From positions 18,170,857 to 18,234,856 of the forward strand of contig NC_065545.1 in NCBI RefSeq assembly GCF_932294415.1: DNA of 64,000 bases. The letters are read 5' to 3'. This DNA comes from Quercus robur (Eukaryota; Streptophyta; Magnoliopsida; Fagales; Fagaceae). The translations under genes and the position numbers were made by a program. Shown piece by piece: positions 18,952 through 51,587 of this stretch; positions within the stretch are counted from its first letter, which is position 1, and each line of letters opens with the position of its first letter. The notes under the pieces were generated by a model, which was given only the letters and a program-made list of their open reading frames with translations, had not been told where the DNA came from and ran no database searches.

Positions 18952-19364
18952 AAAATTTTCTTGTTATAAATTCTATAAATAATAATAATAATAATTAAGA
19001 CATTATATTTTAAATCTTAAAATAAATTAAATCATATAATTCCAAAAGTTTAAGTTAAAGTGTTGAACCCTTAAAATATAAAACTACTATAAATTAAACC
19101 ATACAGTTTTGTGAATTTCAAGTTGAACTCAGGATTTAAAAAAAAAAAAAAAACGTATCAATTTAAACCCTAGGATACAAAATTTTCTTGTTATAGATGC
19201 TATAAATAATAATAGTAATTAAGACAAATTATATTTTAAATCTTAAAGTAAATTAAATCATACAATTCCAAAAGTTTAAGTTAAGGTGTTGAACCCTTAA
19301 AATATAAAACTACTATAAATTAAACCATACAGTTTTGTGAATTTCAAGTTGAACTCAAGATTTT
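18952..19364. repeat. Tandem repeat, two units of about 185 bp
   Basis: Unit 1 (18952-19137) and unit 2 (19179-19364) share nearly all bases, for example 'aagtttaagttaa' then 'gtgttgaacccttaaaatat'. Small indels separate them, so the duplication is not very recent. No coding content. Confidence 0.85.
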
Positions 19365-19813
19365 AAAAAATGTATCAATTTACATGGATGTGTTAACAAT
19401 TTTTAACTAGTTCAAATTTAGCTCACCAATATTATTTTTTTACGTACCAATAACAATTTTTATTTTCTCTCATAAAAAAAAATAAAAAATAAAAAAATAA
19501 AAAAAGACAATTTGTATCTTCATCTATGCTATTATTTAAGGGGTTTCCCCTATTTGGACCGGATTTTTTTTTGTTCCAAAATATCCCTACAACCTACATT
19601 TAAATAGGGCCAACTTAGTAAAAATACATCTTTAACTCCCACTAAAACATTGCCTAAACAGAACCACTCTTTTGATGGTTTTCAAATTACTTTATCTATT
19701 TCTCAAAAAAAAAATTACTTTATCTATTTATTAAAAAAAATTAAAACAAACATACGTTTATTTGTAAAAATACATCTACTGATTAAAAAAAAAAAACAAA
19801 TGCCATTATTGCA

Positions 19814-21578: not shown

Positions 21579-21587
21579 TAAATAAAA

Positions 21588-21784
21588 CTAGCCTCTAAGC
21601 ACGCGCTCATGTGCGTATTCAGAAGCTCTTCTATTTTTTTGATAAAAGTTAATAATTTGCATCCATTATAAATTTGGATTACTACATTTTTCAATCACAA
21701 AAATACTTAGGAGTATGATCATGATGAGTGTTATGCATTTGTACCAAATATTAAAATCATTAACCTTTCTCCATGCATAACACT
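21588..21784. mobile_element. Foldback MITE, left arm and loop (split by the LTR element)
   Basis: Starts CTAGCCTCTAAGCACGCGCT. About 150 bp of this arm is the reverse complement of 36667-36799 on the far side of the LTR element, so both are halves of one roughly 330-bp foldback element. The loop has 'tgttatgcat...atgcataaca'. The last five bases, ACACT (21780-21784), are the LTR element's target duplication. Confidence 0.8.
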
Positions 21785-22584
21785 TGTAGGGATAAGGGCC
21801 AAAAATTGTATATTGGGTCTTGGGTTTTGGCCGAGGACGTTGATTGGTCCGAGGATGAATAAACAATAGTGAGGGTGTTAAGTTCAAAGTCTCATAAGTA
21901 ACATGCAAGTAAAAATGTTAAGAAAGGTGGTCCGAGGAGGAGTGTCTCCTCGGATAAACAAAGTATAGGTCAAACGTATATTCTATTACTCAAAGTGACC
22001 TTCTAGGAAGTTTCGCTGAGAAGGACATGTATCGTGAACATACTAGAAGAGTGGAAGTTAGGAAATATCTAAGGAAAAGCTGCTGTCACCACATTAAATG
22101 CCCTGCAGCTAACTTTCTAACTGCATTTATGTGGAGAAGACCCCTGAATAGTGTTGCCTTGGCTACCGCAACTCATAGAAAGCCAGAGAAGGTGTCTGAT
22201 GGGATAAGCACTCAAGTAGTGGCTTAAATGATCAACAAATGTAGGATCAAGATAACGAAAAAGAAGATATATAATGTAAAAGATCCTCCATGGATATGGG
22301 ATCGGAAAAAAGGAGGAGAAAGCACTGTAGCAAGCAAAATCGTATTTGTAATTGTTTCCAATTAATATACACTAGAACTTACCTCCTCGAACCAGGCCGA
22401 GAGTGAATTTATTTAGGTCAATCCTTCTGGTTTTTGTTTGATTATCTTTCAAACCTATTCTATCTGTTGTCCAACTCATTAGGGCCTAGTTCTCCAACCC
22501 AGTCTCTACAAATTTATTGTGTTGGGCTCACTGGGCCCATATCCCTTTATATTTTGGGTTTGAGCTTCAAAACGTGTCCCTACA
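21785..22584 (+). repeat. 5' LTR of the Tat-type element
   Basis: It has TG...CA ends and matches the LTRs at 36093-36661 and 39367-39934 over most of its length, including the 'ctcctcggata' box, but it is longer and more diverged from them than they are from each other. Confidence 0.88.
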
Positions 22585-25500: not shown

Positions 25501-27950
25501 GCTACATGGTAACTCACCGAGGAATTGAGGTTAACTCCAATCAGATTAAGGAAATTAACAATTTACAACCACCTCGGAATCCCAAGGAAGTCCAAAAACT
25601 AATCAAAATGACTATTGCCTTGAACCGGTTTATCTTTCGGTCAGCGGATAGATGCAGACCCTTCTTCCTATTGATGAATAAATGGAAGAAATTTGAGTGG
25701 ACTGAGGAGTGTGCTTTGGCCTTTAAACAGCTTAAGGAATATCTCTCTCGGCCACCTATCATATCCAGTCCTGAGATGGATGAGGTCCTGTTTGCTTATA
25801 TTGCTGTGGCCCCTCATGTTGTGAGCTTGGTGCTAATACAAGTTAATAGTGGCATACAAATGCCAGTTTATTGTGTGAGCAAATCACTGCATGAAGCCGA
25901 GATCTGTTACTTACCACTGGACAAAGCCATTTTGTCGGTAGTACATGCTACACGTAAAATCCCCCATTACTTCCAGGCACACACAGTTGTTGTCCTAACT
26001 CAACTCCCACTCAGAGCTCTGCTCCAAAGTGCTGATTACATAAGGAGGATTGCCAAGTGGGGTACAATCTTGGGGGCTTTTGACACCACATACATGACTG
26101 ACCTCTGTTAAGGGCTAGATCCTCGCAGATTTGGTGGCCGAGTTCGCTGAATCCCCATTCAAGAAAGAGGCAGAAACACAACACATGGATGAAAAATCAG
26201 TTGGTACAATCACCCTACAAGAACCTTTAATCTGGAAGGTATATGTTGATGGCGCAGTGAATCAAAGGGGGTCCGAAGTGGGGCTAGTTCTGGTTTCACC
26301 CAAGAAAATCACCATTGAGAAATCATTAAGATTGGGATTCTTGGTCACAAACAATGAGACTAAGTATGAAACCCTACTGATGGGAATGGCCATGGTCCAA
26401 AGAATGGGCGGAAAGGCAGTAGAAATGTTCTCGGACTCAAGATTGGTTGTGTCCAGGTGAAGGGAGAGTTGGAAGTAAGAGATGAAAGAATGCAAGAATA
26501 CTTGAGTCAAGTCAGGCATTTGCAATTAGGATTTGAATCTTTCAACCTATTACACATCCCTAGAAGTGGAAACACACATGCTAATTCCCTGGCCACGCTT
26601 GCAACCTCTTCGTCGTGGAGCTTACCTCGAGTCATCCTCATAGAGGACTTGTGCAAATCCACAAGGGTAAGAAAAAAGGTGGTCCATGTTCACCAAGTCA
26701 GAGTAGGGCCTAGCTGGATGGACCCCGTGGTACTATTCTTGAAGGAGGATATCCTACCCAAGGAGAAATCAGAGGCTGACACGATACGAAGAAAGGTTCC
26801 TCGGTTCTGGTTATCCGAGGACCAGAAACTGTACAAGTGCTCCTTTTCTGGGCCATATTTGCTCTGCATACACCCTGAGGCATTAGAACTACTCTAGAGG
26901 AGTTACATGAAGGAATTTATAGAAGCCACACAGAAAGCAGATCTTTATCTCACAGAACCAGCACACAGGGCTATTGGTAGCCAAACATGCAAAAAGAAAC
27001 ACAAAAATTTGTGAAGAAATGTGATCAATGCTAGAGATTCGCACCAAACATGCACCAACCAGGAGGAGTCCTCAATCTCCTATCTAGCCCTTGACCGTTT
27101 GCCCAATGGGGCTTAGACATTGTTGGCCCTTTCCCCAAGGCAACAGGGAACAAGAGATATTTGCTAGTCGGCACAGACTACTTCACTAAGTGGGTTGAAG
27201 CTGAGCCCTTGGCAAATATCAGGGATGTGGATGCCAAGAAATTCATTTGGAAAAACATTGTCACATGGTTCGGGGTCCCTCGTACCCTCATCTCGGACAA
27301 TGGCCTTCAGTTTGATAACAAATCTTTTAGGAGATACTGTTGTGACCTGAGAATTACAAATAGATATTCTACCCCAGCTTATCCCCAAGAGAATGGACAA
27401 GCCGAAATTGTTAACAAAGTCATAGTGAATGGACTCAAGAAGAGGTTGGATGATGCAAAGGGAAGATAGGCAGAAGAGTTGTCACACATCCTTTGGACAT
27501 ATCGGACTACGCCTCGTAGGTCAACGGGAGAGACGCCATTTTCAATGACATATGAGGTCTAGGCCGTTATTCCTTTGGAGACTGGATTCCCAACACTGAG
27601 GATGAGTTCTTTTACTCTAAGCAACAATAACAAGTTATTAGGGAAAAGCCTAGACTTAATTGAGGAGGGAAGAAAAAATGCAATGGTTCAATTGGCATAT
27701 TACCAACACAAGGTCAAGTAAGGTTATGATGCCAATATGAAGCTGAGACCTTTAGTGCCTGGTGAATTGGTGTTGAGAAAGGTTCTAGGTATTACAAAGA
27801 ACCCAGCATGGGGAAAGTTGGGACCTAACTAGGAGGGGCCGTATCGCATTACCTCGGTGGCTGGTATAAAAGCATATTTTCTCGAAGACCTAGATGAACA
27901 TGTAATACCACGCTCTTAAAATGTAAGCAACCTGAAAAGGTATTATTATT
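22585..27950 (+). mobile_element. gag-pol region of the Tat-type element, fossil
   Basis: Parts seen, with approximate limits: gag 23025-23590 (VEHVSHFNKRM, LKTYSDRYWEIFNEI); zinc-knuckle remnant 23830-23900; aspartic protease 24230-24480 (VDQDSGAEIMY); reverse transcriptase 24990-25480 (DLNKACPKNSFPMPKID, VYIDDMMVKSK); RNase H 25690-26090; second, archaeal-type RNase H 26235-26620 (VDGAVNQRGSE, LATLATSSS); integrase 26950-27560 (GTDYFTKWVEAEPL, SDNGLQF). No chromodomain was recognised, which fits the Tat lineage. The region is broken and does not encode a complete polyprotein. Confidence 0.88.
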
Positions 27951-28021
27951 AATGAAAGTTTCCCTTGTCATATGCTCCTTTATTGTATAAATACATTGTA
28001 CTTCCCATTATCATCTTTTTA

Positions 28022-28428
28022 AGTATTAAATAGAAGCTTAGATATGTCTGGCTTCTCGGACCACATGCTTTGAAGAAATTAATACTTAATGACATCTTTC
28101 TAAATATTAAACAGAACTTTAGACATGTTTGGCTTCTCGGACCACATGCTTTGGGGAAATTAATACTTAATGACATCTTTCTAAAAGTTAAACAGAACCT
28201 TAGACGTGTCTGGCTCCTCGGACCACATGTTTTGGGGAAATTAATACTTAATAACATCTTTTTCAATGATTAAATAGAACCTTACACATGCCTGGTCCTC
28301 GGACCACATGCTTTGGGGAAATTAACACTCAATGACATCTTTACAAGTGTTAAATAGAACCTTAATCATGTTTGGTCCCTCGGACCACATACTCTGGGAA
28401 AATTAATACTCAATGACATCTTTATAAG
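28022..28428. repeat. Tandem repeat (about 80-bp unit) between integrase and antisense block
   Basis: About five units, each with 'cggaccacatgct' and 'aattaatacttaatgacatctt'. A sixth diverged unit continues at 32323-32400 beyond the hAT insertion. It is part of the LTR element's non-coding interior. Confidence 0.85.
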
Positions 28429-31400
28429 CAGGGGCGTAGCCAGGAATAATTACATGGGGGGGCCGGGTTGTAACAGAGATATACTAAATATAATTCTTAA
28501 GTCTATTGGATACAAAATTATCAACTTTCATATATCATCATATACTTGAACATTAATAAACATGAAAAACTATCTAGCTCAATGTAGACATACAAAAAAG
28601 AACATTCACATCAAATCATGCCTGACGACGATTTTTCATGGAATAAAATTCATTCATTATCATCTCTACATTGAAATTCCCTACAATTTCCTTCTCTATA
28701 TAAACTATCATATTATCTGCCAAAAGCTCATCCTCTATTCTATTGCGAAGTTTTGTTTTTAACAACTTCATAGTTAAGAAAGCTTATTCTGTAGTTGCTG
28801 TAGAAACTGGAAGGGTCAACACAAGACAAATAAGTTTATCAATCAAAAAATAGATTTTAAACTTTCCTGAAATTTTTAATCCCTTACATAGCTCGGAAAT
28901 TGTACTCATATTCTGAAAATCTGGATGTTTTATCACATCAAGCTTATAATGTTGCAATTGAGACTCCAAAAGTTCTTGTTCATGTTCAGTGAAATCTTGA
29001 GGATAATATTTCTTAACCAAATTGCATATATCAACAATTTTGAATAATCTAAAAGCATCCTTGGGATTTAAAGTTGAACTAAGAATGACAAGTTCCGTTG
29101 TTAGCTCACAAAATCTACTTTTCAATTCTTGCAATTGAAAGTCTATTGCAACTGTAAATATGCCAATTCTAAAATGATGTTCCATTGTTAAATTTTCATC
29201 TTGACGACGATATCTACCTCGACCTTTAGTGTAACGAGCATTCATATCAAGAATATCAATTTCATATTGCTCACAAAATGATATAACACTAGCAAGTAAA
29301 TGCTCCCATCCATCATCTCTCAACTTTTGAATAAGTGATTTTGTAGTTGAAACTAAATGCATGGCATTTAAAAGGTCTTGAGAATGTTGTTGCAAAGCTT
29401 GACAAAGAACATTAGTAATTCCCATTATCTTTTTCATCAAATGCAAGATTAAAATAAATTCAAATGATGTTAATACCTGATAAGCTCCCTCGGCATCACC
29501 ACGTTGTTTATAGTTAGCCCATTCCTCAGAGATAGTGTTGATAACTTTGCAAGTAGTATCAAACATTTTAATCAAAATACAAATAGATTGAAAATGAGAT
29601 CCCCACCTAGTATCTCCAGCTCGTTGCAAAGTACCAATCTGGTTTGCACCTCTTCCAGTCTTAATTTCATTAGAAGCAATCATATTCTCAACTTGTTCTG
29701 CTTAAGCATGTTGCAATTCATCATTACACTTACTAGAACCAGCAACAATATTGATAATATTAACCAAATGATCAAAGAACTGATGAACATCTTTTACTTC
29801 TTTAGATGCTATAACTAGAGCTAATTACAACCTACGAGCCATACAATGTACATAATAAGCATATGGGCAATCTTTAAGAAAAAGAGCTTGTAATCCATTC
29901 CATTCACCACGCATGTTACTAGCCCCATCATATCCTTGACCTCGAATATTTTCAATGTGGAGGTTGTGATGAGAAAGGACAACACATATCTCATTCTTTA
30001 AAGTCAATGCAGTAGTGTCTCTAATATGCACAACATGAAAGAAACGCTCTTTAATGAAACCTTCTTTATCAACAAACATCAAAATGATGGCCATTTGCTC
30101 TCTCTTCGACTCATCCCTGACTTCATCAACAAGAATGCAAAATTTTGCATCCCCAATTTCTTCACGAATAGTATTTCGCACATTACTAGCAAGAATATGC
30201 AAAATCTCCTTTTGAATTATGGGTGATGTATATTTGGCATTTCCTGGAGCATTTTCCAAGACAACACTAGCTACTTTGTCATTGAAAGTTGATGTGAATT
30301 TTATCAATTCAATAAAATTACCTATATTTTTTGAATCAAGGCTTTCATCATGACCTCTAGAAGCACAAGATTGGAATGCTAGCCATCGAGCACACTCAAT
30401 TAAGGTTTTGAGCCGCAACCGATTATTCTCTAATTTTTTTGATGTTTGTTTCTCAATTAGCTTGTCAATATGTCATAAATAATTCTTTAAATCCTCGCAA
30501 CATTTCACAGCAATTTTATGTGGGGAGTTTGGATCTTTCCCTTCATGACAAATTAAAGGACAATTCATTCCATCTTTCACCTTTTTCCAATTATTAAAAC
30601 CTATTGAAATGAATGCATCTGATCCGGGACGACCTAATTGTTTCTTACTAAAAAGGTAGCAAGGTAGACAATATATCGCATCCATTGAAGGTGAGTATTC
30701 CAACCAATCCTTATGTGATTCAAACCATGAAAGTTGAAATCGACAACGATGAGTATCATCATTGTATGGATAGTATATATTTTTAGGTTGATACGGACCT
30801 TCTTTGAAATAAGCTCGTCGGATTTCATCTTGTTTGTTGATAGGGAATTCACATATTTGTTTACGTGATCTTGGATCACGATCTATCTCTTCAAATTGAA
30901 TTCTTGAACATTTGGAGAGGTGTTCATTAGGCATTGAAGTATCAACATTTGTTTCTACAGTCACAGGTGTCCTAATTTCTGAATTGCTAACATCTTTTTT
31001 CTTAAAAAATGCATCAATTGTTTTTCGTTTGCTCATAATTCTTTTAGCTTTAAGAATATGACTCAAAAATTAACCTTAAAAGAACTTTAAAAAATAAAAT
31101 TTTAATTAGAAATTTTTACTTAGTTATATGGATGTTATTCATACTCAAGAAAAAACAAAATTTCCACTATAATTTAAACAGTCAACCCATCAATCATCAT
31201 CATTCCTATTATTAAAATTTTCTTGTATTTTAATTTTTTTAATACAACTTTAATTAATAATAACCCCCTCAAACAAAAACAAAAATTAAATACACAAGTA
31301 TTTGTACACAACATAAACCAAACAATTTAACAACTCTCACAGCCACATTAACTAATCAAAAATAGATAATAAATCAAAATAATTTTACCTTAGAAAGTAG

Positions 31401-32230
31401 AAACTTTGTCTTCACAGAATCACAAAGTGCAAAAATGGGTGGGCCGTGTGGCAATGCTTATTGCCTACAATTGTAGATATTCTTCCCTTCAAGACTCATC
31501 AGTCATCACAAACAATCTCCTTATTTCCATCCTGACCATCCCCATGCCTTCAATCATATATTTCTCTAAAAATCTATGAAAATATAAAGAGCATGTGAAT
31601 ATTTAGGTGTAGATAGTTGAGAAAATAAAAAAAAAAAGACACTGAAAATAGATGAAGGCATAGTGCTTAAATAAGAGAAGAAAACTCACCAAGTAGTCAC
31701 CAAGTTCCAAATCTTGAAATTTGACAATGAAATATGCTGAGTGATTTTTTTTAGAAAGCAGGAAGAAAGAAAAAATTGGTCAGGATTTTTTTTTTTTTTT
31801 TTTTCGGGACTGGAGGACTGATGCTGCTGAGTTTTGGGGGCTAGTAGGCGGTACCAATGGGAAGTGTTTCACAAAAGACAAAGAAAAGAAAAGAATAAGA
31901 AGTAAAGTGGGAAGTGTATCACAGACGTCAAAGAAAAGAAAAGAATAAGGGATTCCGTGGAGACTGTGGGGTGGGTTTTTGAGATGGAGAAAGTGAAGTT
32001 TTGTTGTTATGTGTTTGGATTTTAGTATTTAAATGTTAGTGGGCCAACTTTGTGTTTTTTTTGGAGCATGAGAGGCCTAAAACTAAAGGTGGGAGCCTGG
32101 GAGAATAGAGGCCTAAGACTAAAGCTGGGAGTGGGAGAAATAGTGGGGATATGGGGTGGGGGGGGGGGGGGGGGGGGCGGATATCCAACATTGGGGGGGT
32201 CCAATCAATTTTCATGCCTACTCTGTTGGA

Positions 32231-32273
<43 letters not shown>

Positions 32274-32314
32274 GGGCCATGGCCCCCCCAAGGGACAACG
32301 TGGCTCCGCCTCTG
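28429..32314 (-). mobile_element. hAT transposon with ZMYM1/TTF-type transposase, inactivated
   Basis: A complete 3,886-bp element. Exact 8-bp target repeats TTTATAAG flank it at 28421-28428 and 32315-32322. Terminal inverted repeats are CAGGGGCGTAGCCA and CAGAGGCGGAGCCA. The minus strand carries one transposase frame from about 31036 (MSKRKTIDAFFKK) to about 28630. It has a TTF-type zinc region (HRCRFQLSWFESH, IYCLPCYLF; 31036-30476), a DUF4371/catalytic core (DEVRDESKREQMA, GQGYDGASNM; 30472-29828), RWGSHF at 29600, and the C-terminal dimerisation part (TMKLLKTKLRNRI near 28760-28690). Four nonsense codons (near 30473, 29825, 29702 and 28784) interrupt an otherwise continuous frame, so it is dead but probably young. 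A G-run (32157-32177) and a T-run (about 32232-32269) lie near its right end. Confidence 0.92.
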
Positions 32315-32322
32315 TTTATAAG

Positions 32323-32829
32323 CATTAAATGGAACCCTAGTCATGACTGGTCCCTCAGATCATATATTTTGGGAAAATTAACACTGTGATATCTATTGGT
32401 CTTTTATTAAGTGTCAAAACAGATCCAAAATTATATCCAACTCATTGGATTGATGGCTTTGGGTAAGTTGAAATCCTTATTTATTTATCTAAGTGATGAG
32501 CAGGATGAAGGTTATCTGCCCCTTTTATTTTTTACAAAGTATGCATTTATCTCCATTAGATTCAGCCTCCATTGTAGAAGGTTCAATTCTCAATATAAAT
32601 ATGTGGTAAACCTCTTTATTGCTGGTACTTGATCAAATTACTTAGATTATTAGCAATGTATTATTGTTAGTTTTTATTAAAGACAAAGTGACAACAGTTC
32701 AATGCTATTTGTGACAATAATAAGCTTCAAAGCACATAAAGTAAAGGAACAAGAGATAAAAAGAAAAACATTTTCATTAAAAAAAAAAAAAAGAAGGAAT
32801 ACATTATATACATTGATAGAATGTCATTA

Positions 32830-32869
<40 letters not shown>

Positions 32870-32879
32870 AAAATGAAAA
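32323..32879. other. LTR element interior, non-coding
   Basis: The end of the tandem-repeat block, followed by AT-rich sequence and a 38-base A-run (32831-32868). No coding part was recognised. Confidence 0.6.
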
Positions 32880-35812
32880 TCCTAAGTGCTAAGCCTTGGC
32901 CTTTGGAGGAGGAGGGTCATCATTTTATCTCAACTGAGAGGTAGGAGCATCCTTGGCCTTAGGATCAGCTTCTTTAGTCTTGGCCTCTGCTTCCTTTGCC
33001 TTAGCTTCAACTTCCTTGGCCTTGGCAGCATCTTTGGCCTCTAAGGGGGGCTTGGTCCCCTTGCCCTTACCTTTGTCTTTGGCCCCATCAGCCCCTTGGC
33101 CTTGATTACTAGCTTGGCCGGGTCCTTTCGAAGCCTCAGGGAGGGGGAGAGCAACCTGGGCAGTCAGGGGCTGCTCTGAAGTCTTTGGAGCAAGGGCAGG
33201 GGGAGAAAGGATGGCACCTAGAACTTCATGAATATCCGGGTGATATTATATGCCCCTAGGTTGCCTCCACGCCGAGTCTACAGGGACTCCTACAACATTA
33301 AAGGCCTCATCCCATGTTGCATTGCGGTAATCCCTGCATACCTCGGCCAGCTCTTCAGTGAGCCTGGCTTGTGTTTCCTCCATGTCGAGGGCGTAAGATG
33401 CTTGCCTTTCAGCCTCTGCTGCCTCCTTGGCCAGTTGAGCCACCTCCTTTGCCTTCTGCAGCTCTGCCCTCAGATCTAGCACAAGTTGCCTTGAAGTGGC
33501 CAGCTCTATTTCGGTCTGATAAAGTAACTTGCACTGGTCTTCAGCCTAAGTCTGGACATTTTTTAGTCCTGCCTCAGCACTTCTTCTATCCCTTTGCTCA
33601 ACAGTCAGCTTGGAGAGCAACTCCTTGTTCTCCTCCTTCGTGGCCCCCAAGGCCTTTTCAGTCTCGAGGCGAAGGTGGACCTAGTTCTTGACATCATTTC
33701 GAGCCTCCTTAACCCATTCCTCGGCCACATAGACCTCTTGGGTGATCTACACAAAAACAATATAGCAACCCCATTTAAAAATAATGATAATAAAATAAAA
33801 TAAACTTACTAGTACTTAAAAAATAAAAAGTATGTGGCTGTGAACTTACCATGGCAAGGTCCCTTTTTAGGGACGTGAAGAGGTCTTGCTGCTTCAACTT
33901 CCTCATAGCGTCCATATCTTTGGGTAAAAAAAGTGGTTGCTCCAAGGCATTGGCTATGTATGCAAAATGACCTCTTCGGAACTCCCTAACAGAGGTGTTC
34001 CACAGGATGACAGCCCTATCCACCTCTAGTCGAAGAGACCAAGTACGTTGCTGGGTGCGCACCTCAGCTAAAGTTTGCTCCTCACGGCTGTCCACAGAAG
34101 TGGACCTCTTGTCGCTAGGGTCTCTAGCCACTTTCTGTTGTTTTATGCACTTCTGAGGGGCCACTTCCCCTTCCTCAAGCTCCTGCACTGGCCTCTTCTT
34201 CTTTAGATTTGGAATGGCATGCAGTCCGAGGTTAGTAGGGGGTAGAGGGGGAGGAGGGGGAAGAGTGGGAGGAACTTGGGACTTGGGGACTTCTTATGAA
34301 GTTGACCCCTTGTTCCTTGCAACCATGAGGTCTCTTAGGCTTTTATTCCCCCGGTTCAGTGCCATCTCGTCTTCCTCTTCTTCGGAGGTACTGTCTGGAC
34401 AAGCAATCACCAAAGTCGGGGCGTGAACACTGAGTGCTTGTCAGGCTCGTCCTCAGCGTCCGAGATGTGAACTATCTGAGCCTCTTGAGCTTCCTCTTCC
34501 TCAAAATGAAATTTGTCTATCTTGTCCTCAAGTGTTAGACGTGAAGAGGCAATCTCCTCCCTTGGTGCTGCTGCTGCTACCTCAGGCAAAACCTGTTGAA
34601 GTGGCAATACAACAGGTGGAAGATCTCTCCGAGCTAAAAATCCAGGCACGAAGACGTCTATACGGGCCAATAGGGAGTCACCAGCTCTTATCGCCTAACT
34701 CGCCTCCTAGAAGATTCTTGACAAAGGCTCGTAGTTAAGTATTAAGTAAGCGGCTCGCAACTGCCTATCCTCACTTACAAAGACCTCGGACCTCAGCAAA
34801 TAGTTGAGAGCCGGAACGTTGACTAGGCTAGGTCTTGGAGCGACGTGTCTTTTATCTGCAAAAACATCCGAGGAGGAAATCATAATCAGACCAATGAAAA
34901 TTATCATCAGAAGAAGATGAAGTGTTAAAAATGAAAAGGGATAAAACTGAAAGGGCTAAATCCCCTGCCAAAGGGACTAATCCTAAGGTACCCCACCTGG
35001 CTCTCCCGCCCGAGTTGGGCAATGAAGACCGTCATGCCATTCCTCAGAGACAATCAGGTAGTCATCCTTCATGCCTTTGTTAGACTTAGGAATGCAGGAT
35101 ATTAGTCTAACGATGTCAGACCGAGACTTAAGATAATATCCCGTGCTGGTAAGTTTCTGGCACTCGATATCAGTCTAACGATGTCAGACCGAGACTTGAG
35201 ATAATATCCTGTGCTGGTAAGTTTTTGGCACTCGTACATATGAACTACATCAAGCCACGTGAGCCCCAAGCCCATTTGCTCATTAAGAGCGTCTACACTA
35301 CCTAAGATCCTAAATAAGTTAGGGGCGCACTGGTAGGGAGTCAACCTATGATTGATTAGATAGTCTTGGGTCACCCTGCCTATAGGGATTGTCATCCCTC
35401 CTTCTATGAAAGCAATCATAGGGATGACTACCTCCCCTTCCTCCCTGTTTGTGACTATTTATTCTGGAGCACAATATTGTAAGGTTACTCCTTACGGAAT
35501 GTGGTACTTGGCCCTAAAACCTTCCATACCAGCATCAGAATCTACTAGGTGCTTAAACCTACCTATCTGGCTAATCTAAAAGGAAATGGGTGAAGTTTTT
35601 AAAGAAATGAGACAAAGAATGGAAGGCCAAGGAGATTGACCAAGGAGAAAACAACCTAGAAGAAATAAAGAATAAAAACTTATGGGAAAGTGAACAAGTG
35701 ACACTATAGGAAGTTCTTGAAAGATTGAGAGTTTTTGAAAGGTTGAGAGCTCTTGAGAGTTTGAAAATTTTTGTAAAGTGAGAAAAAGTGAGCCCTTCAT
35801 GCACCTTATATA
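32880..35812 (-). mobile_element. Antisense gene block of the Tat-type element, fossil
   Basis: Minus-strand coding pieces lie between pol and the 3' LTR, opposite to gag-pol. Order from the 3' LTR side: an N-terminal piece (35419-35102) with IPIGRVTQDYLINHRL and LFRILGSVDALNEQMG, resembling the domain annotated as 'putative gypsy-type transposon'; an acidic linker piece (34670-34407, DKFHFEEEEAQEAQIVH); a piece at 34188-33775; and an Ala/Glu-rich coiled-coil-like piece (33482-33246). A TATATAAGG box faces this block at 35812-35804. Antisense genes here are known in Tat elements. The block is broken. Part of it is copied at 37697-39090. The domain name is a recollection. Confidence 0.7.
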
Positions 35813-36092
35813 GGAGGTAAGATTAAGTGGGAGTTATCCCACTCAAAATTCGAAGAAAAATGTCCACCTTAGGATCTGCTCCTCACCATTGGATGCGGGG
35901 AACAAAGCGCCACCTAGAGCAATTAATGACACGTCATGGGTTTCTAGGCGTCAGAAACAATTATGAGAAGCACCTGATAGTGCTCCCACGTGTGTAAATC
36001 ATAGGAATTAGTAATTTTAACTCTTAAGAAATCAAAATCCCAATTCTTCTCCTCGGATAAGAGGGAAAAAAATCGGAATTTTGAGGGGCTAT

Positions 36093-36661
36093 TGTAGGGA
36101 TAAGGGCCAAAAATTGTATATTGGGCCTTGGACTTTAGCCGAGGACGTTGATTGGTCTGAAGATGAATAAACAATAGTGAGGATGTTAAGTTCAAAGTCC
36201 CATAAGTAACATGTAAGTAGAAAGGTTAGGAAAAGTGGTCCGAGGAGGAGTGTCTCCTCGGATAAACAAAGCAAAGGTCAAATGTATATTCTATTACTCA
36301 AAGTGGCCTTCTAGGAAGTTTTACTGAGAGAGACGTACATCATGAACGTACTGGAAGAGTGGAAGTTAGGAAATATCTAAGAAAAAGCTGTTGCAACAAA
36401 ATCCTAGCAAGCAAAATTGTATTTGTAACTGTTTCCAATTAATATACACTAGAACTTACCTCCTCGGACCGGGCCGAGAGTGAATTTATTTAGGTCAATC
36501 CTTTTGGTTTTTGTTTGATTATCTTTCAAACATATTCTATCCATTGTTTAACTCATTAGGACCTAGTTCTCCAACTTACTCTCTACAAATTTATTGTGTT
36601 GGGCTCACTAGGTTTATATCCCTTTATATTTTGGGTTTGGACTTCAAAATGTGTCCCCACA
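36093..36661 (+). repeat. 3' LTR of the Tat-type element (copy 1)
   Basis: Starts TGTAGGGATAAGGG and ends CCCCACA, preceded by the purine-rich 'ttttgaggggctat' and followed by the target repeat ACACT. It is much closer to the LTR at 39367 than to the 5' LTR. Confidence 0.9.
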
Positions 36662-36799
36662 ACACTCATCATACTCCTATGAATTTTTGTGATTGAAAAA
36701 TGTAGTAATCCCAATTTATAATAAATGCAAATCATTAACCTTTATCAAAAAAATAGAAGAGCCTCTAAGCATGTGCGTGAGTGTGTGCTTAGAGGCTAG
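36662..36799. mobile_element. Foldback MITE, right arm (copy 1)
   Basis: Reverse complement of the left arm at 21588-21735, ending TGCTTAGAGGCTAG. The last 38 bases also form their own hairpin. It continues directly from the LTR's ACACT repeat. No target duplication of the MITE itself was found. Confidence 0.8.
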
Positions 36800-37253
36800 T
36801 AATTGTAAAAATTTACCTTATTGCTAAGTTATCAACTAGTATATATATTTTATTTTTTTTTTCTAGTAAAAAAAAAATAAAATAAAAAACCTTATCAAGA
36901 AAAAATCTAAGATCATATTCTTTTATGACAAGGATTAATAATTGTAAAAATGTGTGTGGTAAAAGATGTAGTCCTAAAATTAATCATATTTCTTTCTTAA
37001 AAAAAAAATCATATTTAAACTTAAAATCCCATTACCACATGTTCAACTTTTATTACCCCGACCCAGCTTCCAAACCAACCTAAAAAGTACAGAATCTCTT
37101 CCCAACACTCAGAAAATTGCAAATTAGGGTTTCAACTTTCAATTTCGTTCCCTTTTTTTCTTTTTTCTTTTCCTCTTTTGCCCTAATTCAAATTCTCTGT
37201 GATTCGCAAAATTTCCTCTTCCATTTAGCTTGAATTCCAACCCCTTTGCAACA

Positions 37254-37428
37254 ATGAAGCATCAGAAACCACGAGACGAGGAAAACAGGGGGGAAAACAA
37301 TGGCTCAAATTCGATAAAAATGAACAACAACATGAAGAAGAAGAAGAGATTAGGTGGGGGTGGCCTTTCGCTCGAGGCATTCGCTAATGCCAAAACAAAA
37401 GGAGATTTTTACAACCTATCTATCATAA
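37254..37428 (+). pseudogene. Orphan FYV7 first exon in duplication copy 1
   Basis: The open 175-bp exon starts ATGAAGCATCAG and ends ACCTATCTATCATAA with a GT donor at 37429-37430. It corresponds to 40553-40733, two Asn codons shorter. About 450 bp of upstream sequence is duplicated with it, so it has the same promoter sequence as the true gene. Later exons are absent: downstream lies the second copy of the LTR-element tail. Transcription from here could be spliced to exon 2 at 42580 by skipping the copy, or could end inside transposon sequence. It is not a complete gene. Confidence 0.85.
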
Positions 37429-37696
37429 GTACTTTTTTTTTTCATTTATTTTGATAAAGTTTCAGTCTTTTTTTCTTTTTTGAAGGTTTTTGTTGTTTGA
37501 GTCTTTGACAATTTGTGTTTTTTAGTTATTGGGTTATTTATTTCAATTTGATTTATTTTTTGGGTTATTTTGTTAGTTCTGTTTGATGGGTATGAGGTAG
37601 TGGGACTTGAAAGCTGAGACTGTTTGGTTTAGAGCTAAATTTCTGGTTGGTTGATGAGAAAATGCAGGAAAAGGAAATAAAAGAATTTTGAGCTAT

Positions 37697-39934
37697 GAGG
37701 TCTCTTAGGCTTTTATTCCCCCGGTTCAGTGCCATCTCATCTTCCTCTTCTTCGAAGGTACTGTCTGGACGAGCAATTACCAAAGTTGGGGCGTGAACAC
37801 CTGAGTGCTTGTCAGGCTCATCCTCAGCGTCCGAGATGTGAACTATCTGAGCCTCTTGAGCTTCCTCTTCCTCAAAATGAAATTTGTCTATCTCGTCCTC
37901 AAGTGTTAGACGTAAAGAGGCAATCTCCTCCCTTGGTGCTACTGTTGCCTCAGGCAAAACTTGTTGAAGTGGCAATACAACAGGTGGAAGATCTCTCCGA
38001 GCTAAAAATCCAGGCACGAAGACGTCTATACGGGCCAATCAGGAGTCACCAGCTCTTATCGCCTGACTCGCCTCCTAGAAGATTCTTGACAAGGGCTCGC
38101 AGTTAAGTACTAAGTGAGGGGCTGACAACTGCCTATTCTCACTTACAAAGACCTCGGACCTCAGCAAATAGTTGAGAGCCGTTGACCAGTTTGAGTCTTG
38201 GAGTGACGTGTCTTTTATCTGCAAAAACATCCTAGGAGGAAATCATAATCAGACCAATGAAAATTATCATTAGAAGAAGATGAAGTGTTAAAAATGAAAA
38301 GGGATAAAACTAAAAGGGCTAAATCCCCTGCCAAAGGGACTAATCCTAAGGTATCCCACCTGGCTCTCCCACCCGAGTTAGGCAATGAAGACCGTCATGC
38401 CACTCCTCGGAGACAATCAGGTAGTCATCCTTCATGCCTTTGTTAGACTTAGGAATGCAGGATATTAGTCTAACGATGTCAGACCGAGACTTGAGATAAT
38501 ATCCCGCGCTGGTAAGTTTGTAGCACTCGTACATATGAACTACATCAAACCACATGAGCCCCAAGCCCATTTGCTCATTGAGAGCGTCTACGCTACCTAA
38601 GATCCTAAATAAGTTAGGGGCGCACTGGTGGGGAGTCAACCTATGATTGATTAGATAGTCTTGGGTCACCCTGCCCATAGGGATTATCATCCCTCCTTTT
38701 ATGAAAGCGATCATAGAGATGACTACCTCCCTTTCCTCCCTGTTTGTGACTATTTATTCTGGAGCACAGTATTGCAGGGTTACTCCTTACTGAATGTGGT
38801 ACTTGGCCCTAAACCTTCCATACCAGCATCAGAATCTACTAGGTGCTTAAACCTACCATCTGGCTAATCTAAAGGGAAATGGATGAGACAAAGAATGGAA
38901 GGCCAAGGAGATTGACCAAGGAGAAAATAACCTAGAAGAAATAAAGAATAAAAACTTATGGAAAGTGAACAAGTGACGCTATAGGAAGTCCTTGAAAGAT
39001 TGAGAGTTTTTGAAAGGTTGAGAGCTCTTGAGAGTTTGAAAATTTTTGTAAAGTGAGAAAAAGTGAGCCCTTCATGCACCTTATATAGGAGGTAAGATTA
39101 AGTAGGAGTTATCCCACTCAAAATTTGAAGAAAAATGTCCACCATAGGATCTGCTCCTCACCATTGGATGCGGGGAACAAAGTGCCACCTAGAGCAATTA
39201 ATGACGCGTCATGGGTTTCAAGGCGTTAGCAACAATTATAAGAAGCACCTGACAGTGCTCCCACGTGTGTAAATCATAGGAATTGGTAATTTTAACTCTT
39301 AAGAAATCAAAATTCCAATTCTTCTCCTCGGATAAAAGGGAAAAACTCAGAATTTTGAGGAGTTATTGTAGGAATAAGGGCCAAAAATTGTATATTGGGC
39401 CTTGGATTTTAGCCGAGGACGTTGATTGGTCTGAAGATGAATAAACAATAGTGAGGATGTTAAGTTCAAAGTCCCATAAGTAACATGTAAGTAGAAAGGT
39501 TAGGAAAGGTGGTCCGAGGAGGAGTGTCTCCTCGGATAAACAAAGCACAGGTCAAATGTATATTCTATTACTCAAAGTGACCTTCTAGGAAGTTTCGCTG
39601 AGAAGGACGTGCATCATGAACGTACTGGAAGAGTGGAAGTTAGACAATATCTAAGGAAAAACTGTTGCCAACAAAATCCTAGCAAGCAAAATCGTATTTG
39701 TAACTGTTTCCAATTAATATACACTAGAACTTACCTCCTCGGACCAGGTCGAGAGTGAATTTATTTAGGTCAATCCTTCTGGTTTTTGTTTGATTATCTT
39801 TCAAACATATTCTATCCATTGTCTATTTCATTAGAACCTAGTTTTCCAACTTACTCTCTACAAATTTATTATGTTGGGCTCACTAGGTTTATATCCCTTT
39901 ATTTTAGGTTTGGACTTCAAAACGTGTCCCCACA
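37697..39934 (-). mobile_element. Duplicated tail of the Tat-type element, fossil fragment
   Basis: Copy of the antisense block (pieces 38038-37565 and 38714-38346) and the 3' LTR. It came by segmental duplication and not by a new insertion, because it lacks a 5' end and shares the same ACACT flank. A TATATAAGG box recurs at 39087-39079. Broken. Confidence 0.85.
39367..39934 (+). repeat. LTR of the Tat-type element (duplicated copy)
   Basis: TGTAGGAATAAGGG...CCCCACA, followed by ACACT at 39935-39939. It ends about 620 bp before the FYV7 start codon, so it borders the promoter of that gene. Confidence 0.9.
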
Positions 39935-40136
39935 ACACTCATCATACTCCTATGAATTTTTGTGATTGAAAAATGCAGTAATCCCAATTTATAATAAATG
40001 CAAATTATTAACCTTTATCAAAAAAATAGAAGAGCCTCTAAGCATGTGCGTGAGTGCGTGCTTAGAGGGTAATAATTGTAAAAATTTACCTTATTGCTAA
40101 GTTATCAGCTAGTATATATATTTTATTTCTTTTCTA

Positions 40137-40182
<46 letters not shown>

Positions 40183-40552
40183 ATCAAGAAAAAATCTAAG
40201 ATCATATTCTTTTATGACAAGGATTAATAATTGTAAAAATGTGTGTGGTAAAAGATGTAGCCCTAAAATTAATCATATTTCTTTCTTTTTTTTTAAAAAA
40301 AAATCATATTTAAACTTAAAATCCCATTACCACGTGTTCAACTTTTATTACCCAGACCCAGCTTCCAAACCAACCTGAAAAGTACAGAATCTCTTCCCAA
40401 CACTCAGAAAATTGCAAATTAGGGTTTCAACTTCCAACTTCCAACTTCGTTCAATTTTTTTTTTTTTTTCCCTCTTTTGCCCTAATTCCAATTCTCTGTG
40501 ATTCGCAAAATTTCCTCTTCCATTTAGCTCGAATTCCAACCCCTTTGCAACA
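39935..40552 (+). promoter_or_regulatory. FYV7 upstream region with MITE arm and A-run
   Basis: 39935-40070 is the duplicated right arm of the foldback MITE. An A-run lies at 40143-40178 and the leader is rich in pyrimidines before the ATG at 40553. No clear TATA box was seen, as is common for housekeeping genes. The same region exists at 36662-37253. Confidence 0.55.
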
Positions 40553-43446
40553 ATGAAGCATCAGAAACCACGAGACGAGGAAAACAGGGGGAAAAACAAT
40601 GGCTCAAATTCGATAAAAATGAACAACAACAACAACATGAAGAAGAAGAAGAGGTTAGGTGGGGGTGGCCTTTCGCTCGAGGCATTCGCTAATGCCAAAA
40701 CAAAAGGAGATTTTTATAACCCATCTCTCATAAGTACGTTTTTTTTTTTTTTTTTCATTTATTTTGATAAAGTTTCAGTCTTTTTTTCTTTTATGAAGGT
40801 TTTGTTGTTTTGAGTCTTTGACAATTTGTGTTTTTTAGTTATTGGATTATTTATTTCAATTTGATTTATTTTTTGGGTTATTTTGTTAGTTCTGTTTGAT
40901 AGGTATGAGGTAGTGGGACTTGAGAGCTGAGACTGTTTGGTTTAGAGCTAAATTTCTGGTTGGTTGCAGAGAAAATGCAGGAAAAGGAAATAAAAGAATT
41001 TTGAGCTATATGGAAATAATAGTAACTTTCTAGAATTCCAATATCTAATGTTTTATATGTACTAGTATTTGTGGAATTAGAATTTTTTTTATTTTTACGG
41101 TATTTCAGCCTAGTGGGGATGAAAGCTTTAGGCTTTTCAAGCTGTAGAATGCTTGTGTGATTCTATATGGTTTTTCGACTGGATGAATTTTGAAAGGCAA
41201 TTTCAGTTTTAGAAACTATACAAAATTGTTATTGACCAACTTTGTCCTAATCTTGCAGAGTCCGGTTCACTTTGAAAAAGGGTTTGCTGGTTAGCTTAGT
41301 TTAGATGAATAGATGATGTTCCTCTTTGTTTTGTATTAAAGAGCTGAACTGCGTCAAGAGCCTTATAGCTCAATTGGCACCTCCTGGTGTTTCCAATGGA
41401 GAAGTATGGGGTTCAAATCCCCCCACCCCCAACTATCAAATTATAAAAAAGTGAGCTGAACAGCATAGTGCATTGTATGAATTGGTCAGGATTAGTATTT
41501 GTGGAATGAGAAATATTTTTTTTGGTATTCCAGCCTGGTGGGGTGGGGATGCAAACTTTAGACTTTTCTAGTTGTACAATGCTTCTGTAATTCTGGTCTT
41601 TTGCCTGAATGAATTTTGAAAGGAAATTATAGTTTTAAAAACTAAATACCAAATTCTTATTGACCGACTTGGTGTCATAAACTTTCAGTCTCCAGTTCAC
41701 TACTTCAGTTTGAAAAAGGGTTTTCTGTTTAGCCTTTTTTAAATGATGTTCCTCTTTGATTCATATTAAGTGAGCTGAACTGCATTGTTTGTACTTTGTA
41801 GTTCGAATCGGTTAGGACCCCCCATAAACATGAGATATGATGTGTTAGTTATTCACTGTGTTCTCATACGGTCAATAACTTACAAACCATGTGAGTTGTA
41901 CACTAGGACGAGGGAGACTGTGGATGTTCTTGAATTCCTTTTGAGAGAAATGTAGGTATATTCCAGCTAATAATTTAGGAAGCACCGACACTATATTTGG
42001 GGTGTGTACCCATGCTTCCTAGGTAAGAGCTACAAAAATTGTTGTGTCGCCATGTCATATGTGTACCCATGCTTCTTAGCTAATAATATATTTAATTTTT
42101 ACAAAAATAGAATTATGTTGTGAAATGAGCAACGAGAACATCATTTTCAAAGATGGTGATAACAATTGTTTTCAAGGATTAGGGCAAGGAAAATGAGTTG
42201 GCAGAGCAGAGAGCCATTTTTTAACCAGAGCTACCTGAACTTTGATGTATATAAAAGCCACTGATTGAACTTGTTTGCTGAATGGACCCCTTTATTACCG
42301 TGCAACTTGGGGGCATAGCACCTGCTGTCCGTCGAGGATAATGATCCATTATCCTCTGTTTGTTTCCTAGATGGGTGAAAGAGCAAAAAATGATACTAAT
42401 CTCAAATATAAAAGAAGTGATAATGATTAAGAATTTGTTTCATCTTGTTCTTTCCAAGAATGAAGTGGAGAAAAAAATATTCTTTTCTGAAAGAGAATGG
42501 AAAGATGTCAGTGATTATAAATTTTGCTTTGTCATACTGTGGTATTTTAACTGACAGGTTCCTGTTTCATTTCTTTCAGAGAAGCAAAAGGAGTTTTATA
42601 AGAATGCAAAGCATGTGAAGAAGTATAAGAAGTTGCTAAAGCAACAAAGTCAGCAACATGATATTTCCTCAGCTATAAGATCCGTTGAGGTTTGATATGA
42701 CATCTACTTCATCTGAATGTTAGATTGTTTTGTTGGTTTCTCTCTAAAAATAGGTTTAGAACTAAATAAAAATGTCAAATACCACAAGTTTTACCATAAA
42801 CAATTGTATCACTATTTCTGAAATACAATTCATTACTCATGTCCTATAAAATTATTTTTTTTTTTTTAAATAAAAATTTAAAAAAAAAAAAAAAAAAAAA
42901 TCTTTTTAGGTAGTATGTGGATTTCAATTTGGAGTATTAGTTCCTAGTTTGAAGTCCTAATTATCATTACATTGTTTGGATCATTTATTTAAAGCACTGA
43001 TTTTGAAATAGAAAAAATGCTTGGTGGTGTTTTAAGTTTATACCACTCAGAAGTCAAAACCCCAACCCCAAACCCATCGCATCCATATAGATTTGTAGTT
43101 GCATGTGGAGTTTGGAAGCTTAAGTCACATACCATTCTGGTGTTTGTTGCAGGATGAGAATGAAACTGAAGATGGAAGCAGTATGGGTTTGAACAAACAG
43201 AACAAGAAGAATCCTGGTATACCCAGTTTGAAAGAAATGTATGATAAGAAGCATGAAAAGAAAGAGAAGGAAAGGATTGAGATGCAGGCAGTTCTTCAAG
43301 CAAAGAAGGAAGAGAGAGAAAAGGCTGAAGCTCGGAGGAAGGCTGCAAGAGAGAAGATGTTCAAGAAGACGAGAGCAGGCCAGCCTGTTATGAAGTATAG
43401 AATTGAGCATCTTTTGGAGACTATTCAAAATTCAGCCAAAAACTGA
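40553..43446 (+). CDS. FYV7-like rRNA-processing protein
   Basis: Three exons: 40553-40733, 42580-42689, 43153-43446, all GT..AG with consistent phase, giving 194 residues. The protein is very basic and Lys/Glu-rich. Its N-terminal block KKKRLGGGGLSLEAFANAK, the exon 1/2 junction FYNPSLIKKQKEFYKNAK, a predicted coiled coil (about residues 125-170, KKHEKKEKERIEMQAVLQ, AEARRKAAREKMFKK) and the C-terminal RAGQPVMKYRIEHLLETIQ match what I know of the FYV7/rRNA_processing family. Yeast Fyv7 is nucleolar and acts in 18S rRNA maturation; the plant role is inferred. Intron 1 (1.85 kb) holds a tandem repeat and a SINE. Exon 1 and the promoter are duplicated upstream at 37254-37428. The gene is convergent with TIR1. 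Confidence 0.85.
41060..41783. repeat. Diverged tandem repeat in FYV7 intron 1
   Basis: Unit 1 (41060-41352) and unit 2 (41489-41783) share 'agtatttgtggaat', 'gaatgaattttgaaagg'-like words, 'gatgttcctctttg' and the end 'gagctgaactgc'. They have diverged clearly, and a SINE inserted at the end of unit 1 separates them. Confidence 0.8.
41353..41452 (+). mobile_element. Short tRNA-derived SINE in FYV7 intron 1
   Basis: A 100-bp element with pol III A-box-like TAGCTCAATTGG and B-box-like GGTTCAAATCC and an A-rich end. It is flanked by near-identical 12-bp repeats GAGCTGAACTGC (41341-41352) and GAGCTGAACAGC (41453-41464). It is too short and poorly folded for a tRNA gene. Confidence 0.8.
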
Positions 43447-48563: not shown

Positions 48564-51422
48564 TCAGGAAAGCCCCAATGCAGAATCTTTATCCTTTGTC
48601 CAAACAAAACCAGGCATGTCAAACCTTGGTCCAGAGACAGTCCTATATATGTAGAGCTTCTCAACTGGACAGCTTTCTGGTCTTGAATCTGGGGGGCCCC
48701 TCTCGTCAATAACCTCAACATTAAGCATCGGCATCTTCTGACCTAGCAGCTTACATGCTCCGAAACTCACAGAGCAAGAAGACATCCAAAGGGATCGCAT
48801 TGTCTCCAGCTTTGCAGCATTGGCCAAAAGAGCCTTGTCACCAAAGGGGCAGTCCCTAATCTCAAGTTTTCTAAGGTTTTCACAACCAGAGAGTACATGA
48901 TGGAGCCCCAGATCACTATCTCCAGCAAAAGCCACAGACAGCATCTCTAATTTTTTGCCATAAGTCCCAATGTACTTAAACACTCGATCAGTAAGAAGAC
49001 CAGAAAGGGAAAGCCGCCTTAGATCCTTGCAGTGCTCAACAATGGCTCCAAATCCCACATCAAGTGGTTCAAGGGTAAGGTAATCAGGAGTCCGTGGCTC
49101 AATAATACAAAGACGAAACCTTGTCATGTTAGGTCGATTCCTGGCAATGGTCCTTAAGGCCTCATTAGACATTTGACGGCAGAAGTACAGAACTGAATGC
49201 AGCTTTGGGCAGCCTTCAGAAACAGAGACAAGTCCCTGTTCTGTCAACAATACATTTGGTTCTGCACCAAATGGCTCTGACGGAAATACCCTCAATTCTC
49301 GCAGATCCTTGCAAGATGCTGCAAGTTCTTCTAGGCCCAAGTCTTCAATGTAATCCAGCACCTGTAGTCATGTTCTCAGTCAATACAGGAACAAATAAGC
49401 AACAGGAACATGTTTGTGTCCAACACTAGGACCATAAAACAAGTAAATTTTGAAAAACATCATATATAAAACCAGACATACCCATAATTTCTGCAAATTC
49501 TGACATTGGCTAGCTAGCTTGATAAGATCAGAACTTTGGATAGTGGCTGCATAGCTCAAGTTCAACGACGTTAACCTAGGACAGATAGGATAAACAACTG
49601 GAAGATAACCCGGGGCTACATCCCAAAAACCAGACAGGCTCTTAAGTTCTTTGCACCCAGAGAATGCCCCCAATAGGTTCGAGAAAACATCCGGTGGTGA
49701 GAAAACATCTGGTCGCAAGTCAGACGCTTCCCCAGTGCCTAACTCAACCAACTGAGGTGCCCGACGAAGTAGGATTGCAAGCCTGTCAAAGGGCACGGCA
49801 CGATTGAGCCGAAGAGTCCTCAGGTTGGGGCACCTACCCACCAGGCATTCCAAGGCTGTGAAGCTCACCTCAGAGTTCAAACAGGCAATGTTAAGGGACA
49901 CCAGTGAGGTGTAGTTATCAGGAAAACGGCTGAGCCAATGTCCACTAGACTGATTCAAGTCCTCCACTTCACTCTCCCTCAAGTCCAGCTCTCTCAAATT
50001 CCTTTAATGCATCAATAAATACAAAAAAATTACAAACACTTCTACTAATATTACCACATCAAGCAATTGAGCATAACCAACCCATATTTTACAAAACTCT
50101 TAACTATCTACAAATATAAACAAGTTCGTAATTTGTCCCCTTATATATCATCCACAATGACAAAGATCATTTTTTTATTTCTGGGTAAGTAGCATTGAAA
50201 CACATTACAACACAAAAGCAAATCATTTATTGTTTTCCAATCTAAGAACCCAGATTCCCAGAACCCCAAAACAGAAAATTAAAAAAATTATTAAAAAAAA
50301 AAAAACAAACATTGTTCACATTGTTACATATATCTTACAAAACTCTTAACTGTCCACAAACATAAACAAGCTTGTAACTTGGTCCCCTTATATATCATCC
50401 ACAATGACAAAGATCGCTTTTTTTTTTTTTTTTGGGTAAGTATCAATGAAACACATTACAACCCAGAAGCAAATCATTTATTGTTTTCTAATCTAAGAAC
50501 CCAGATTCCCAGAACCCCAAAACAAAACAAAAAATCAAACTATTATTCCCTAAAAGCAAACAAACACAATCAGAAACTAGTACAAACAGAATCTTCCTTA
50601 AATCAACATTTTAACTCAAACAACAAGATTCATTCATTTGACCACCAATTATTTAAAGTAAGAAGAAGAAAAAAAAGTGAACAACCCCACCTCACCCCAG
50701 GAAAAATAAAATAGAACCCAAGTAATCTTGACTAGATTTTCCACATTAACCAGTGCCCTCCCAGATCTACAATACAGAAAAAAAAAGTAAATAAAGCAAA
50801 GTAACACTAACTATAACTGACAACCAAAACACATTTTTACTAAAAAGAAAAAACAACAATGCAACAAAACCCAAGTTTAGTCTTCAACATTTTCAACTAA
50901 AAACCAGATCTTGAACACAAAAAGTTTGAATCTTTCAATTTGGGTTAAGCTAAACCTGCAATCAGCAGCAATGGCAGCAAGTCCTTTAGTCGAAAAACCT
51001 TCACAAGAAGAAAGCACAAGAACCTTAAAGTTCTTGAACGACTTAGAAATGAGTTTCAAGGTGTCGTCCGAGATGACCATGCGCTTCAACCGAATCTCTT
51101 CGAGCCCAGGATAAGCCTTGGAAGCCGCCTCGATCCACGGGTCCACGTAGGCGCCCCAACCTTCGGGTACGAGGTTGAAATCAGCGAAGTGTGGCTTACC
51201 TTTGAGCTCCAAACACCTCACGTCCGGGAACCGTTTGATCAAGATCACGGGGCTGACAGCGTAGCAGTTGCCCACGAACACTCTCCTCCGGCTCCAACGT
51301 TCGATCTCGTACCACGATTGACACACGGTCGAGATCGCGTTCCTGTCTCTGTCTCTCTCTATGAATGAGAACACGTGTTCCAACACTTCTTCAGGGAACG
51401 AACTACCCATCATCATCTTCAT
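48564..51422 (-). CDS. TIR1: TIR1/AFB auxin-receptor F-box protein (TIR1 type)
   Basis: Three exons on the minus strand: 51422-50956, 50001-49482, 49361-48564, GT..AG introns with correct phase; 594 residues, the usual length. The N-terminal F-box ([19 protein letters not shown]) binds the SCF adaptor SKP1; leucine-rich repeats follow to the end. R412 ([10 protein letters not shown]) and S447 (RRLSLSGLL) correspond to the auxin-pocket residues R403 and S438 of Arabidopsis TIR1. The protein is a nuclear co-receptor that binds auxin with Aux/IAA proteins and marks them for degradation. The sequence is closer to TIR1/AFB1 than to AFB2/3. The start could be any of several Met codons (51422, 51416, 51413 or 51410). 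Exon 3 holds a miR393 site. Intact. Intron 1 contains an internal duplication. Confidence 0.95.
48785..48806 (-). promoter_or_regulatory. miR393 target site in TIR1 exon 3
   Basis: On the plus strand the bases TCCAAAGGGATCGCATTG equal the first 18 nucleotides of miR393, so the TIR1 mRNA (minus strand) is perfectly complementary over miRNA positions 1-18; only positions 19-21 mismatch. It encodes the conserved TMRSLWMSS stretch. miR393 control of TIR1/AFB genes is established; cleavage would fall opposite miRNA positions 10-11. Confidence 0.92.
50081..50530. repeat. Tandem duplication in TIR1 intron 1
   Basis: Segment 50081-50278 recurs at 50327-50530, sharing 'ccccttatatatcatccaca', 'atgacaaagatc' and 'agaacccagattcccagaac'. 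About 200 bp each, moderately diverged, with an A-rich spacer. Confidence 0.88.
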
Positions 51423-51587
51423 GTAAAAAATTAAAATTAAAAAAATAAACACAACACAACACAAACACAAACACATTTTTTTTTTTTTTTTTTTGGTTTT
51501 CAAAGCTCAGAGAGAGAGAGTTTCCAAAGTGACACACACACAAAGTGAGGCAAAGCTATACTGTTAGATCTGAGAGTGCATTTCACA

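Follow-up and report, generated by a model that had tools for sequence, protein, structure and literature searches.

We refer to the whole 64-kb stretch of DNA analyzed here as the window; it lies at C41:18170857-18234856 in a 786-Mb genome of 42 contigs and has an N content of 0. Genes in the window encode SWEET, TIR1-type, and CASP domains, in agreement with a plant origin. FYV7, a ribosome-assembly gene whose predicted product is an rRNA-processing protein, is found on the plus strand, with a single-copy exon 2 (42580-42689) and an exon 3 (43153-43446) that runs to the stop codon and matches PF08524. Two versions of exon 1, also on the plus strand, precede them: exon 1A at 37254-37428 (175 bp from the ATG) and exon 1B at 40553-40733 (181 bp from the ATG). 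Each has an open frame that continues in phase into exon 2, and they end in the donor sites AA/GTACTT and AA/GTACGT, respectively, of which donor A lacks the G at position +5 and donor B has it. A genome search for FYV7, in which the best candidates were scored, returned this locus and, as the sole other match, a frameshifted 3' fragment on contig C37; with the PF08524 family model, exon 3 was located at the window locus only. The fragment (L032, C37:50854000-50863500) comprises the last part of intron 2 followed by exon 3 and the sequence beyond it, and is 82-91% alike to FYV7, depending on the stretch.

Elsewhere in the window, SWEET-type sugar transporter pieces lie at 14932-15706 (MtN3_slv), and a piece of a TIR1/AFB-type auxin-receptor gene with Transp_inhibit and F-box_5 domains lies on the minus strand at 50877-51503. 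The minus-strand stretch at 48564-49361 has no Pfam match and perhaps extends this piece as a further part of the TIR1/AFB-type gene. Short duplications of about 100-200 bp each, 89-96% alike, are present at 18951-19370, 50084-50527, and 61938-62578, the last with an inverted pair. A PDB search gave one match, of no use at E 0.92.

An LTR retrotransposon occupies positions 21785-36661 on the plus strand, upstream of FYV7, with gag, RT, RNase H, and integrase pieces that are broken by stop codons. Its LTRs, an 800-bp 5' LTR (21785-22584) and a 569-bp 3' LTR (36093-36661), both on the plus strand, form a TG...CA pair flanked on both sides by the 5-bp target-site duplication (TSD) ACACT (21780-21784 and 36662-36666). 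Pfam matches over the cut-off on pieces of the element were PF03732, PF00078, PF17919, and PF17917, and PF00665 scored 32.2, slightly below its cut-off of 32.6. The order gag, RT, RNase H, integrase is a mark of Ty3/gypsy, and by this domain order the element is classified as a predicted Ty3/gypsy LTR retrotransposon. In the Tat lineage of Ty3/gypsy, a second RNase H domain stands ahead of integrase; at 26131-26460, the sole Pfam match was DUF7922, below its cut-off. The arm of a foldback (dispersed inverted-repeat) sequence follows the element at 36668-36800 on the plus strand, and its partner arm lies to the left of the element on the other strand (21587-21719). Because opposite arms flank it on both sides, the element appears to have inserted into such a foldback sequence. 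A DNA transposon, presumably hAT-like, is nested in the element at approximately 28429-32314; it is flanked by the two copies of its 8-bp TSD, TTTATAAG, and contains a minus-strand DUF4371 piece. A tandem array of units of about 81 bp (28009-28428) adjoins it, likewise within the LTR element.

Self-comparison of the window and a MAFFT alignment delimit a tandem repeat of two plus-strand copies, copy A at 34325-37694 (3370 bp) and copy B at 37695-41009 (3315 bp), the latter contiguous with the remainder of FYV7. Read from 5' to 3', copy A contains the 3' part of the element interior, the 3' LTR, the foldback arm, the FYV7 promoter, exon 1A, and the start of intron 1. The unit comprises the terminal 2.3 kb of the element together with the arm, promoter, and exon 1, and reaches 266 bp into intron 1. 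In copy B, the 3' LTR is at 39367-39934 on the plus strand, and the TSD was re-copied at 39935-39939 through the tandem duplication. A reading of this DNA from its sequence only (hereafter the sequence-only reading) had proposed a head-to-tail duplication of about 3.3 kb over a transposon/host-gene boundary, and both comparisons bear this out. The reach it gave the unit, from the interior of the LTR element through the 3' LTR and the FYV7 promoter into intron 1, agrees with the TSD ACACT and the PF08524 match. It had placed the start at 34327, which differs from 34325 only in leaving out the AT common to the breakpoints.

In the self-comparison, A and B aligned in two collinear BLAST pieces, with 93.3% identity over 2573 columns and 94.2% over 843 columns. 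The scattered differences noted earlier between the copies were recovered in the MAFFT alignment, in which 151 of 3274 aligned bases differ (4.6%), in addition to indels of 1-68 bases. Past its first 151 bases, the host part of the unit matched only A and B among the 83 matches listed, for which 40 of 1422 candidates were scored; the exception was one 39-bp inverted match internal to the unit. Neither an unduplicated copy of the locus nor a further exon 1 was found elsewhere in the genome among the best candidates scored.

The junction between the copies (37693-37698) reads GAGCT-AT-GAGG, and its AT (37695-37696) corresponds to the AT of both parent breakpoints, AACC-AT-GAGG at 34325-34326, within the LTR element, and GAGCT-AT-ATGG at 41008-41009. 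This comparison upholds the earlier claim that AT is the only overlap of the junction with both parents: two bases match forward and none backward, and the join is gap-free and devoid of filler. A 27-mer over the junction matched once genome-wide at up to three mismatches. At least 2 bases are common in a fraction of 0.18 of random local joins; the 2-bp overlap is thus within chance and gives no preference for microhomology joining over blunt joining or template switching. Comparison of the 300-bp surroundings of the two breakpoints gave a local score of 20 (21 for the reverse complement), against a null median of 19 and a null 95th percentile of 27. No hairpins beyond those of shuffled sequences were found at either breakpoint (z 0.24 and 0.26), and two control stretches behaved likewise. 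Since the breakpoints lie outside the LTRs and their likeness is at the level of random pairs, recombination between LTRs or other repeats at these positions is excluded, which fits the earlier proposal of end-joining or template switching in place of LTR recombination. The breakpoint sequences support a non-homologous route, for which end-joining and template switching both remain candidates.

For the age and order of events, ten related transposon pieces elsewhere in the genome served as outgroups, these being the best ten of 40 scored, with the window's own two set aside. A and B were sisters relative to all ten, with support of 99.9/100. Each of the 11 indels in the transposon part could be placed on one of the copies, 5 on A and 6 on B; for the two that lie in the LTR, the placement depends on outgroups L020 and L027. 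When the 107 substitutions between A and B in the transposon part were polarized by L020, the closest of the ten outgroups, 48 fell to A and 56 to B, with 3 left; by the majority of five outgroups, 37 fell to A and 67 to B, again with 3 left. Private changes are thus present on both copies, as expected if A and B drifted on their own. Faster decay of one copy was considered, with mixed outcomes: maximum-likelihood branch lengths were 0.021 for A and 0.030 for B, and Tajima tests of A against B rates with five of the ten outgroups gave p = 0.49 (L020), 0.07 (L021), 0.001 (L022), 0.09 (L023), and 0.04 (L027).

Kimura two-parameter (K2P) distances between LTRs were 0.111 for the 5' LTR against A, 0.105 for the 5' LTR against B, and 0.052 for A against B, corresponding to a ratio of duplication age to insertion age of 0.48 (bootstrap 0.32-0.68). 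At 41 of the 69 variable LTR sites, A and B group together against the 5' LTR; the other two groupings account for 15 and 12 sites, and one site has three letters. About 231 bp of the 5' LTR are absent from the 3' LTRs of both A and B. Among the five outgroup LTRs compared, L020, L022, and L027 plainly keep a stretch of this size at that place, and the patchier L025 and L026 leave room for it. From the LTR distances and the loss common to A and B, the order of events is insertion, LTR deletion, and then duplication. Within copy A, a 68-bp segment is tandemly repeated (35098-35233, plus strand), with halves about 6% apart. The segment is single in copy B and in all ten outgroup copies; hence, the repeat arose in A after the duplication.

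Differences between A and B in the transposon half comprise 88 transitions and 14 transversions. The transitions fall on 24 of 98 CG sites, 16 of 115.5 CHG sites, and 48 of 731 CHH sites, a spectrum that hints at methylated DNA. The host half has 28 transitions to 21 transversions, which differs from the transposon half (Fisher p = 0.00015) with the caveat that the alignment of a pyrimidine tract near 37150 is unsure; its counts of 4 in 22.5 CG and 3 in 29.5 CHG sites are too small to be told apart clearly from the rates in the transposon half. Divergence is 4.6% in the transposon half and ranges in the host half from 2.9% in exon 1 to 8.7% in the stretch with the poorly aligned pyrimidine tract, with 3.8% in intron 1. 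The differences show mild clumping, with a variance/mean of 2.1 in 32 blocks of 100. Gene conversion between A and B was considered, and no tract is claimed because the longest stretch of identity, 113, is the same as the median of the permutations.

The locus is very probably an old partial tandem duplication, its order of events and non-homologous origin included. In this reading, the LTR retrotransposon inserted about 0.6 kb 5' of the FYV7 start codon. Later, a single non-homologous event copied about 3.3 kb in tandem, from the element interior into FYV7 intron 1, presumably by end-joining of staggered breaks or by a template switch during replication, and A and B drifted independently from then on. 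The outcome is a partial tandem duplication of the gene, in which two sets of promoter and exon 1 stand on one FYV7 body.

Based on its open frames and matching phases, FYV7 is predicted to be one gene with two potential starts, a consequence that the sequence-only reading had left out: two alternative first exons for one gene. The predicted proteins have 192 residues from start A and 194 from start B, with PF08524 scores of 55.8 bits with exon 1A and 51.9 bits with exon 1B (cut-off 23). Exons 1A and 1B differ by 2 synonymous and 3 nonsynonymous differences and one in-frame 6-bp indel, a pattern that gives no hint of purifying selection. With rough rates, the chance that both copies stay intact under neutrality is about 0.33, and no selection on exon 1 is shown by their intactness. 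No outgroup was found for the host half, for which the C37 copy has the 3' end only; the exon and promoter differences are therefore left unpolarized. Start B would yield the normal FYV7. A transcript from start A, if made, would have exon 1A joined to the common exon 2 by removal of an intron of about 5.1 kb (37429-42579), which would contain the LTR of copy B, the foldback arm, and exon 1B. Use of start A would thus require splicing to skip exon 1B, and three acceptor-like sites 5' of ATG-B could intercept it; joining exon 1A to two of these leads to an early stop, and the third is stop-free across 40 residues.

A telo-box, TTAGGGTTT, is present on the plus strand at 37124-37132, at -130 from ATG-A, and again at -134 from ATG-B. 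Within 700 bp 5' of either ATG, the sole site II match lies far upstream, in the LTR (-654 and -678). Telo-box and site II elements are frequent in the promoters of ribosomal-protein genes, typically near -30, and a telo-box occurs in 32% of random promoters (PMC3229498). The position of the FYV7 telo-box at -130/-134 is atypical by comparison.

False duplications, in which two haplotypes of a single-copy locus are placed end to end, are known from assemblies of outbred organisms, and two alleles, too, would be expected to carry private changes. An assembly artifact of this kind is nonetheless improbable at FYV7. Against a yardstick of about 1%, the divergence of both halves is high for alleles, and the A-B split dates to about half the insertion age. 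The gap-free join with its 2-bp overlap also argues against it, as an overlap assembler should need a read spanning the join. Unequal homologous recombination merits hardly any credence: LTR elements recombine often, yet here an LTR is internal to the unit, and the breakpoints, one inside the element and the other in intron 1, have only the null-level likeness described above, which refutes recombination between repeats. We give equally little weight to 3' transduction, in which a read-through transcript would have been retroposed into a neighboring site. Such a transcript could account for a unit in which an LTR is followed, in the sense of element transcription, by the host sequence downstream of it. 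However, copy B begins within the body of the element, stops in an intron where no poly(A) tail is present, and directly abuts A with no target-site duplication.

A different question, within the preferred reading of a genuine partial tandem duplication, is whether start A is dead and FYV7 is expressed from B alone, for which the chances appear about even. The missing +5 G of donor A would fit a dead start, as would the neutral look of the exon 1 differences, the uninformative intactness of the exons, and the need for a start A transcript to read through the LTR in its intron. On the other side, exon 1A is open and in phase, its PF08524 score is slightly above that of 1B, and the telo-box is retained. 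Heterochromatin within introns is reported for more than 10% of rice genes (PMC7145194), and PEP1 of Arabis alpina uses both of its starts (PMC3527215). That both starts are active, from two near-identical promoters 3.3 kb apart and with the upstream transcript splicing across the captured LTR, is a tentative proposal that we regard as rather doubtful.

PEP1 offers the closest likeness among the systems compared. As described by Albani et al. (2012; PMC3527215), PEP1 has tandem copies that cover exon 1 with portions of the promoter and of intron 1; each exon 1 copy is joined by splicing to a single exon 2, and distinct starts were determined by 5' RACE. At FYV7, portions of the promoter and of intron 1 are likewise doubled along with exon 1, and either exon 1 copy can be joined in frame to a single exon 2; the locus thus has the structural features of a PEP1-type partial tandem duplication as far as its sequence goes. 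The two loci differ in layout: the PEP1 exon 1 copies lie 6.3 kb apart, with several duplicated segments of which the longest is about 2 kb, whereas FYV7 has one 3.3-kb unit that includes an LTR. Regions upstream of both PEP1 exons are highly diverged, whereas the FYV7 promoters are alike. Two starts with different expression were shown for PEP1 (PMC3527215), whereas those of FYV7 are predicted from sequence.

Concerning the route, a rice study attributes 14 of 27 non-co-linear copy-number-variant genes to nonhomologous end-joining (NHEJ), 12 to TEs, and 1 to nonallelic homologous recombination, reading breakpoints with micro-homology or free of homology as NHEJ (PMC4812662). With 14 of the 27 gene copies so attributed, the route proposed for FYV7 belongs to a common class. 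A break-repair case on wheat chromosome 2D is a 494-kb deletion (PMC6097286). FYV7 resembles the rice and wheat cases in having breakpoints with micro-homology or none, and differs in kind, being a tandem copy that ends in a first intron, as opposed to non-co-linear gene copies in rice and a deletion in wheat. If start A is used, FYV7 would resemble the rice genes with heterochromatic, TE-bearing introns (PMC7145194), since an LTR and a TE fragment would lie in its first intron, whereas methylation at FYV7 is hinted at by the mutation spectrum alone.

Patch-mediated break repair may account for the 68-bp repeat of copy A. Vaughn and Bennetzen reportedly described, in 2014, short tandem duplications in rice arising through such repair; compared with these, the unit duplicated at FYV7 is large, at 3.3 kb.

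The mechanism of the duplication is in itself ordinary. The locus provides an example, dated relative to a transposon insertion, of a promoter and first exon doubled without the whole gene. If both starts are active, the isoforms would differ N-terminally (E/K, two more N, and LSII/PSLI), and the share of start A would depend on silencing of the element through the LTR-bearing intron. Since the search located FYV7 a single time in this genome, the locus would be well suited to a clean test of a dosage effect.
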